A stretch of DNA of 64,000 bases, taken from positions 1,081,773-1,145,772 of the forward strand of contig JAHLLG010000001.1 in assembly GCA_020444275.1 (NCBI GenBank), in the 5' to 3' direction. A program made the translations under genes and the position numbers. Below, in pieces: positions 16,073 through 26,141 of this stretch. A model generated the notes under the pieces. The model made no database searches. It worked only from the letters and a program-made list of their open reading frames with translations, and had not been told where the DNA came from. This DNA comes from Bacteroidota bacterium (lineage in GTDB: Bacteria; Bacteroidota; Bacteroidia; Bacteroidales; UBA12077). How positions within the stretch are numbered: the first letter of the stretch is position 1; each line of letters opens with the position of its first letter.

Positions 16073-16096
16073 AGCCTGCCTGCCGGCAGGCAGGCT
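16073..16096. repeat. Perfect 24-bp GC-rich palindrome
   Basis: A perfect palindrome whose arms contain CCTGCCTGCC and its complement, sitting in otherwise very AT-rich DNA between tRNA-Pro and trxB. The same core, with one extra T, occurs at 26002-26022. There is no T run after it, so it is not a standard terminator. It looks like a small dispersed palindromic repeat. Confidence 0.75.
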
Positions 16097-25931: not shown

Positions 25932-25980
25932 AGATTAATCAATTTAATAATATTACGTTAGTAGCTAATTCAAGAAAATC

Positions 25981-26042
25981 TTTGTGGAACTTTGTGCCTT
26001 CCCTGCCTTGCCGGCAGGCAGGTTCGTGTTCCTTTGTGGTTT
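25981..26042. repeat. Four decamer repeats interrupted by a GC-rich palindrome
   Basis: TTTGTGGAAC (25981), TTTGTGCCTT (25991), TTCGTGTTCC (26023) and TTTGTGGTTT (26033) form a 10-base-period array. Exactly between units 2 and 3 lie 22 bases (26001-26022) holding the near-palindrome CCTGCCT-TGCC/GGCAGGCAGG, which shares its core with the perfect palindrome at 16073-16096. The phase of the array is kept across the 22-base block. It lies in the 210-base gap between two convergent genes, which otherwise shows nothing. Confidence 0.75.
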
Positions 26043-26141
26043 AGTTATTTATATTCTGTTCCAAAGAACACCAAGAATTGTATAAAGCAACAAATTGACT
26101 TTTTAGACAACTCATCGTTTTATAATATCTTACTGAATATT

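Follow-up and report, generated by a model that had tools for sequence, protein, structure and literature searches.

The small dispersed repeats (SDRs) of cyanobacteria (Nostoc and relatives), the subject of Elhai et al. 2008, 'Very small mobile repeated elements in cyanobacterial genomes', are reportedly 21-27 nt long and dispersed, carry compensatory changes, and insert in other repeats and in themselves. They are said to be confined to a cyanobacterial group. Insertion of IS200/IS605 elements is clean, without duplication. Their ends carry a tetranucleotide 5' of a small hairpin that is read by a single-strand transposase, as described in passages of PMC6006769. Cyanobacterial SDRs are mentioned in passages of PMC3116915 and PMC2884548. 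The GTAG and CGTC REPs are presented, in parts of PMC3733652, PMC6006769 and PMC3116915, as short hairpins with an unpaired terminal tetranucleotide (variants TGTC and CCTC), and the same parts describe CGTC REPs without a dedicated transposase. Some REP copies lie inside genes, uvrA being named in an excerpt of PMC3733652. In passages of PMC6006769, REPs are called species-specific, and a Bacteroidetes subclass of TnpA-REP type is outlined, with genes flanked by atypical structures and the signature YIH[QN]NP. Rickettsia palindromic elements, of about 150 bp, are described in an excerpt of PMC10969869 as palindromes inserted into protein genes that have nothing else in common, with the reading frame preserved.

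The window, meaning the whole 64,000-nucleotide stretch analysed here (G000:C7:1081773-1145772 of a 4.22-Mb genome), has 32-37% G+C along its length. At 25981-26042 it contains four near-copies of a decamer (TTTGTGGAAC, TTTGTGCCTT, TTCGTGTTCC and TTTGTGGTTT) and a GC-rich block, both of which are seen directly in the sequence, as the original prediction held. The features are as follows.

26002..26022, minus strand: very small palindromic element, form B CCTGCCTTGCCGGCAGGCAGG, 21 bp, from filled/empty comparison and folding
25980..26001, plus strand: decamer array, left part (CTTTGTGGAACTTTGTGCCTTC), up to the insertion junction CTTC/TTCGTG (slash at the junction), from sibling arrays
26023..26042, plus strand: decamer array, right part (TTCGTGTTCCTTTGTGGTTT), from sibling arrays
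26059..26113, plus strand: probable opposite arm and end of the degenerate MITE-like host repeat, with mirrored AAAG units and terminus ACTTTTTAGACAACTC, from by-eye sibling alignment
16075..16094, no strand: second family member in the window, the perfect palindrome CCTGCCTGCCGGCAGGCAGG, 24 bp with its AG/CT ends (16073-16096)

Read on the minus strand, form B consists of a CCTG tag, the stem CCTGCC, the loop GGCAA and the stem GGCAGG. On the left side of the host repeat, a matching end was not recognisable in the window. At up to three mismatches the core CCTGCCTGCCGGCAGGCAGG gave one match in the window and none in 100 shuffles; the block at 26002-26022, which has one additional base, was not matched at this threshold. 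At up to one mismatch TTYGTGNNNYTTYGTG gave three window matches against 0.79 expected, two of them exact and both of these in this array, and a count of three was reached by 3 of 100 shuffles. Within the window alone the decamers exceed chance only modestly. A mis-specified pattern, TGCCNNGGCAGGCAGG, returned 0 matches. Better support for the array comes from its siblings elsewhere in the genus.

Searches with an empty-array pattern at up to three mismatches returned 69 rows in 8 of 20 genus genomes (control 0), a count in which the two arms of one repeat may each appear, and 11 rows in the window's own genome were empty at both junctions. The empty sibling L314 reads ...TCTGCGTCTTC/TTCGTG... 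(in full CTTTGTGAAACTCTGCGTCTTCTTCGTG), L321 and L337 are similar, and the empty junction of the siblings is CTTC/TTYGTG. Because L314 has a C before the junction, the C at 26001 belongs to the array. Relative to the empty siblings the window thus carries 21 extra bases (26002-26022) after ...CTTC, and the length of 22 originally given for the block is corrected to 21 bp. Removal of 26001-26022, as first proposed, gives a neater decamer phase but does not regain the junction of the siblings. Four arrays in the window's own genome are filled, and which of the two junctions is filled varies: only the second in the window (form B), only the first in L003 and L016 (form A, mutated in L016), and both in L009. 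When L003 is compared with L337, both flanks align and the difference amounts to a 20-bp insert and scattered substitutions. Over the 45 bases that precede the array there are 2 differences between L009 and L314, and at the two junctions L009 has one insert of 20 bp and one of 21 bp; past the second junction it carries another small palindrome, so this pair is not clean there. No target duplication was seen at the filled/empty array pairs. The repeat of which the array forms one arm (155 bp in L337) has the inverted ends GGCTGTCTGAAAAGT...ACTTTTCAGACAG, and the "older repeat" of the original prediction is therefore MITE-like. That prediction, of a small palindrome inserted into an older repeat without target duplication, is borne out by the four filled arrays and the 11 rows empty at both junctions.

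Some further observations were made around these arrays. A very small palindrome of a different kind, TTCCGATA..TATCGGAA, occurs in L009, where it substitutes part of the decamer array relative to the siblings, and in L032, where it adjoins form A. The membrane-protein gene flanking the window's array is present in 6 of the 20 genus genomes including its own (the G018 match being only 29% identical). The window's intergenic region gave no alignment in relatives and hence no empty orthologue of the window copy. In G014 the region downstream of this gene (L105) holds form B in a different host repeat.

By sequence, the block belongs to a family of 20-21-bp palindromic elements, of which form A is CCTGTCTGCCGACAGGCAGG (20 bp), form B is the 21-bp sequence of the window and CCTGCCTGCCGGCAGGCAGG is the perfect palindrome. 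The second copy of the core is where the original prediction put it, and further copies were found: at up to three mismatches the window's own genome has 21 matching places, including 8 exact copies of form A and 1 exact perfect palindrome (backward control 0). Exact matches to the pattern CCTGYCTGCCGRCAGGCAGG, which covers form A and close variants, occur in 17 of the 20 genus genomes, the window's own among them (backward control 0), in 0 of 5 sister-genus genomes and in 3 of 34 further genomes from the order. Form B with one free base occurs at 25 exact places in 14 of the 20 genus genomes, 23 of them with T (backward control 0), and in a sample of the phylum 43 of 395 genomes, the window's own included, had an exact match (backward control 0).

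On one strand the two forms read CCTG-CCTGTC-GGCA-GACAGG (A) and CCTG-CCTGCC-GGCAA-GGCAGG (B). For form A, its A-T variant and form B, DNA folding of this strand gave four unpaired bases and a 6-bp stem, of the type ....((((((....)))))), with a loop of 4 nt in form A and 5 nt in form B, which accounts for 20 versus 21 bp. The opposite strands of A and B, and also the perfect palindrome, fold without an unpaired tag. When the fifth stem pair was searched with a purine on one side and the other side free, the search recovered 68 copies from 14 of the 20 genus genomes (control 0), of which 65 had A-T and 3 had G-T. These copies are related rather than independent events, but they require a minimum of two paired changes. 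At this position form A has T-A and the palindrome C-G; on the other hand, at least four copies with C.A and at least two with T.G are among the CCTGYCTGCCGRCAGGCAGG matches listed. The fifth pair, the one stem pair that this comparison covers, covaries, which fits a 6-bp stem.

We regard the window block as probably a copy of a mobile very small palindromic element of 20-21 bp, with a probability of about 0.88. Transposition was not observed; mobility is well supported by comparison, which points to a family, to insertion relative to empty siblings and orthologues, to nesting, to in-frame insertion and to covariation at one stem pair.

The family was also found in hosts other than the decamer array. 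A host-site script over the loci, in which only inserts of 20 or 21 bp were allowed, found the host TCATNYTGAR/YTTRT filled in 6 cases, each by exactly 20 bp, and empty in 14, with both orientations of the insert (L010 versus L033/L035). A genus-wide search for this host allowing 0-28 bases returned mostly empty hosts among the matches listed, and its backward control a few matches. The matches listed include an exact filled case in G014:C11, TCATCCTGAG[20]CTTGTCGAAG, and a 19-bp variant insert in G014:C16. One host (L043) holds two inserts. Fragments resembling the 5' part of tRNA-Leu were filled in 7 cases versus 9 uninterrupted copies, and those resembling tRNA-Arg in 6 versus 1; as most loci were chosen for holding an element and unfilled fragments would be missed, these filled/empty ratios, like the ones above, are not frequencies, and as repeated hosts, the tRNA-like fragments included, may have multiplied with their insert, the counts are of sites and not of events. 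The insert position in these fragments looks like the D-loop, and the uninterrupted copies were taken for tRNA genes (ARAGORN was run on L065 and L098). At 95 sites whose flanks were joined minus 20, 21 or 22 bases, ARAGORN restored no tRNA, and the tRNA-like hosts are therefore read as 5' fragments.

Ten loci have an element-bearing tRNA-like 5' fragment followed within 7-41 nt by an ORF of approximately 80-90 aa (L210, L218, L253, L302, L306, L309, L232, L236, L046 and L055), and all five of these ORFs that were searched (L210, L218, L232, L046 and L055) match Pfam GIY-YIG. In six of these tRNA-like-fragment loci an uninterrupted tRNA-Leu-like copy lies beside the filled one. No ORF of 60 aa was found within 150 nt of four of the five fragments in L232, nor in L020 and L271. 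By eye, form A lies shortly upstream of apparent start codons in L023, L031, L034, L063, L069, L085 and L100, of which L034, L063 and L100 may represent one orthologous gene; form A in this position could possibly act as a 5' UTR hairpin.

The position of the insertions relative to hairpin loops was examined at 226 sites, chosen for distinct 30-base flanks and for no fewer than 100 clean bases to either side. Stems of at least 6 bp bracketed the junction at 29 of 226 sites (12.8%) versus 140 of 2712 shifted controls (5.2%), and stems of at least 8 bp at 14 sites versus 31 controls; stems of at least 9 bp were not enriched (1/226 versus 16/2712). Insertion into hairpin loops is an enrichment that concerns a minority of sites and is no rule. 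For flank preferences, sites differing by more than 6 in their 24 flanking bases were used. A purine precedes the tag at 120 of 149 form-A sites and at 20 of 20 form-B sites. Other flank positions of form A carry at most 0.15 bits, and for form B the values beyond the hairpin are 0.73 bits at +1 and 0.98 bits at +4, from 20 sites only.

Wherever filled and empty alleles are comparable, copies insert without target duplication or loss, in either orientation at one host repeat, and mostly with a purine directly 5' of the tag. Targets comprise the arms of MITE-like repeats, REP-like hairpin loops, tRNA-like 5' fragments, short distances ahead of start codons, the element's own copies, and, in frame, protein genes. 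The element may move as a single-stranded hairpin, with a Y1/HUH-type (IS200/IS605/TnpA-REP-like) enzyme acting in trans and reading tag and hairpin. We consider this route doubtful, in part because the flank preferences of form B also lie on the side away from the tag, and the enzyme is a guess because, in addition, no Y1-gene arrangement was found and the copy-number correlation is weak.

Among 30 Y1 loci one contained the element, as a loosely matching palindrome, and among 23 loci around mostly weak Y1 matches the palindrome was present in 4. Loci with a YIHxNP-type signature had it in 1 of 16 cases (L381, inside the gene) and loci without the signature in 3 of 7; the signature YIH[QN]NP itself was found in 11 of the 23. 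Palindrome density was 6 in 70.9 kb at Y1 loci, 3 in 103 kb at UvrA-like loci and 7 in 82 kb at decamer loci, so that Y1 loci exceed the UvrA-like loci and equal the decamer loci, which leaves room for a weak Y1 link. Across 20 genomes the counts of Y1 genes and elements gave rho 0.33 (p 0.15). A link to RAYTs was considered and is unsupported by the Y1 loci (1/30 and 4/23) and by this correlation.

An RNA-mediated route, reportedly proposed for the cyanobacterial small dispersed repeats, is one alternative. The hairpin would spread via an RNA copy, by ligation or reverse splicing into RNA loops followed by reverse transcription and recombination. Such a route would suit the copies found within protein genes, in tRNA-like fragments, ahead of start codons and, by eye, in terminator-like hairpins, as well as the G-T found at the covarying pair in 3 copies. 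Most sites lie outside hairpin loops by the stem test, however, and both orientations occur at one host repeat (L010 versus L033/L035), and we judge the RNA route unlikely.

The strongest evidence for insertion of a mobile element comes from a site in a UvrA-like gene. Among its 14 closest orthologues, 10 are empty (G000, G004, G007, G008, G009, G010, G013, G015, G016 and G017), 3 are filled with the same in-frame 21-bp insert, equal to 7 codons, and 1 is apparently decayed; a gene fragment in G012 (50 residues, starting past the site) lies outside this comparison. In G018 form B is in frame; in G002 this insert contains a nested CCTGTCTGCCGAACAGGCAGG, and in G005 it contains a different nested 21-mer, which has CCCG at the tag position. 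The in-frame stretch in G011 looks like a decayed copy. When the inserts are removed from the filled allele of G002, the empty allele of G016, GATAAATGT, is obtained at the junction. In a tree of the UvrA-like protein without the loop, G016 stands beside G005 (support 0.68), within the filled group. The interspersion of filled and empty alleles on this tree could come from several gains at the one spot, from precise loss, or from an error in the tree.

Other protein genes also contain the element. Form A is in frame in an oxidoreductase (L038, within the Pyr_redox_2 match) and just ahead of an M20 peptidase match (L068), and it is nested in a glycosyltransferase (L082). Form B lies in long open frames at 8 of its 25 places, of which L120 and L129 are doubtful, leaving 6 of 25 as credible: inside the Pfam match in a UvrA-like ATPase (L115), a metallo-beta-lactamase-fold protein (L118) and two histidine kinases (L119 and L123), just after the match in a Y1-type transposase (L108), and in a large protein (L131). 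Nested elements were found in L093, L082, G002 and G005.

These alleles bear on the reading of the palindrome as a recognition signal (DNA-uptake-like, a protein-binding site or a terminator) accumulated through mutation and selection. Its constancy, shortness and dispersal, and some terminator-like contexts (L011 and L012, by eye), are what such a signal would show; against this, filled and empty alleles differ by a whole 20- or 21-bp insert, the element is also found in frame in genes and inside itself, and there are few exact copies per genome, which makes this reading very improbable. A palindrome that had long been fixed in the decamer array or MITE, and was never inserted, would account for several filled arrays having it at the same junctions, but the window's own genome has empty arrays with closely similar flanks and the same palindrome occurs in unrelated hosts, so this explanation has next to no chance of being right.

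Form A was found in exact form in at least 119 stretches across the deposited records. Among the 80 record titles listed, 31 place the record outside Bacteroidota, one of these being a 334-kb contig; Rhodothermia and three unnamed bacteria were left out of this count, and the phylum names are those of the titles as deposited, so that mis-binned contigs may be included. These titles include Patescibacteria lineages, Neomarinimicrobiota, Omnitrophota, Nitrospirae, Proteobacteria, Deltaproteobacteria, Bacillota, Planctomycetota, Verrucomicrobia, Actinomycetota, Chlorobiota, Ignavibacteria and others. By comparison, exact form A thus appears in records titled as many phyla. Many of its carriers are, by title, metagenome-assembled genomes, and isolate-titled records with exact form A are those of Galbibacter orientalis DSM 19592, Maribacter arenosus and Flavobacterium undicola. 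In viral contigs, exact form A was found in 23 stretches and form B in 7, some of which share a contig. A sequencing, adapter or assembly artefact, with identical 20-mers in unrelated metagenome assemblies, would accord with the many metagenome-assembled carriers, but it is made very improbable by copies that vary with stem covariation, a copy in G011 that looks decayed in frame, three genomes with the same insert at the same codon, and the isolate-titled records with form A.

Two further arrangements were observed. On the viral contigs L368 and L370, two form-B copies stand back to back as an inverted pair, giving a 42-bp palindrome. At G294:C1:842649-843206 and G352:C1:660835-661096, copies of form A follow one another at even intervals (76-77 and 121 bp), which suggests tandem arrays containing the element.

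The family may be among the smallest mobile DNA elements seen. A tentative extension, to which we give somewhat less than even odds, is that it represents a third, CCTG-tagged REP-like class, in which the complete mobile unit would be 20-21 bp, near-constant across at least 10 phyla and viruses, and moved by one widespread enzyme acting on single strands, possibly with precise excision. Natural experiments on how anything as short as 20 bp can be mobile are available here: one gene site has empty, filled, nested and apparently decayed alleles in relatives, and the arrays of one genome are in different filled and empty states. Because the sequence hardly varies between records of many phyla, the mover can be searched for. 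In-frame inserts of 7 residues in conserved proteins may be encountered unrecognised by annotators and protein modellers.

Neither the exact DNA words nor the encoded peptides were present in the open-licence PMC papers, and a keyword search of that literature returned no recognised description of the element. A MITE has the terminal inverted repeats of a DNA transposon and a target duplication; for the palindrome itself, no target duplication was seen at the filled/empty pairs. The original label "REP-like or MITE-like" divides: the host repeat is MITE-like and the palindrome REP-shaped, but neither a GTAG/CGTC tag nor an associated transposase was found. With REPs the element shares a short stem-loop and an unpaired tetranucleotide at one foot, on one strand of A and B, as well as the presence of some copies inside genes. 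It differs from them in having CCTG at the tag position of A and B rather than GTAG or CGTC (or TGTC, CCTC), in its 6-bp stem and total of 20-21 bp, and in being near-constant in records of different phyla. No arrangement of copies around a RAYT/TnpA-REP gene, as in GTAG REPs, was found among the 30 + 23 Y1 loci, and instead of the mainly inverted doublets of REPINs, the 95 exact copies stood one per locus except for two each in L043 and L092. IS200/IS605 ends resemble the element in the tetranucleotide at the 5' foot of a hairpin and in clean insertion; here, however, a single hairpin is the whole element, and no transposase gene lies between two ends. In-frame insertion into unrelated genes is common to this element and the Rickettsia palindromic elements, which by their description are about 150 bp long versus 20-21 bp here. 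Set against the reported description of cyanobacterial SDRs rather than their sequences, the element is alike in its 20-21 bp, its presence in other repeats and its self-nesting, and it differs in that form A occurs in records of many phyla, whereas SDRs are reportedly found in one group. The closest kinds are the cyanobacterial SDRs, the tagged REPs and the Rickettsia palindromic elements, from which the present element is set apart by its CCTG tag, its size of 20-21 bp and its constancy across records of many phyla.
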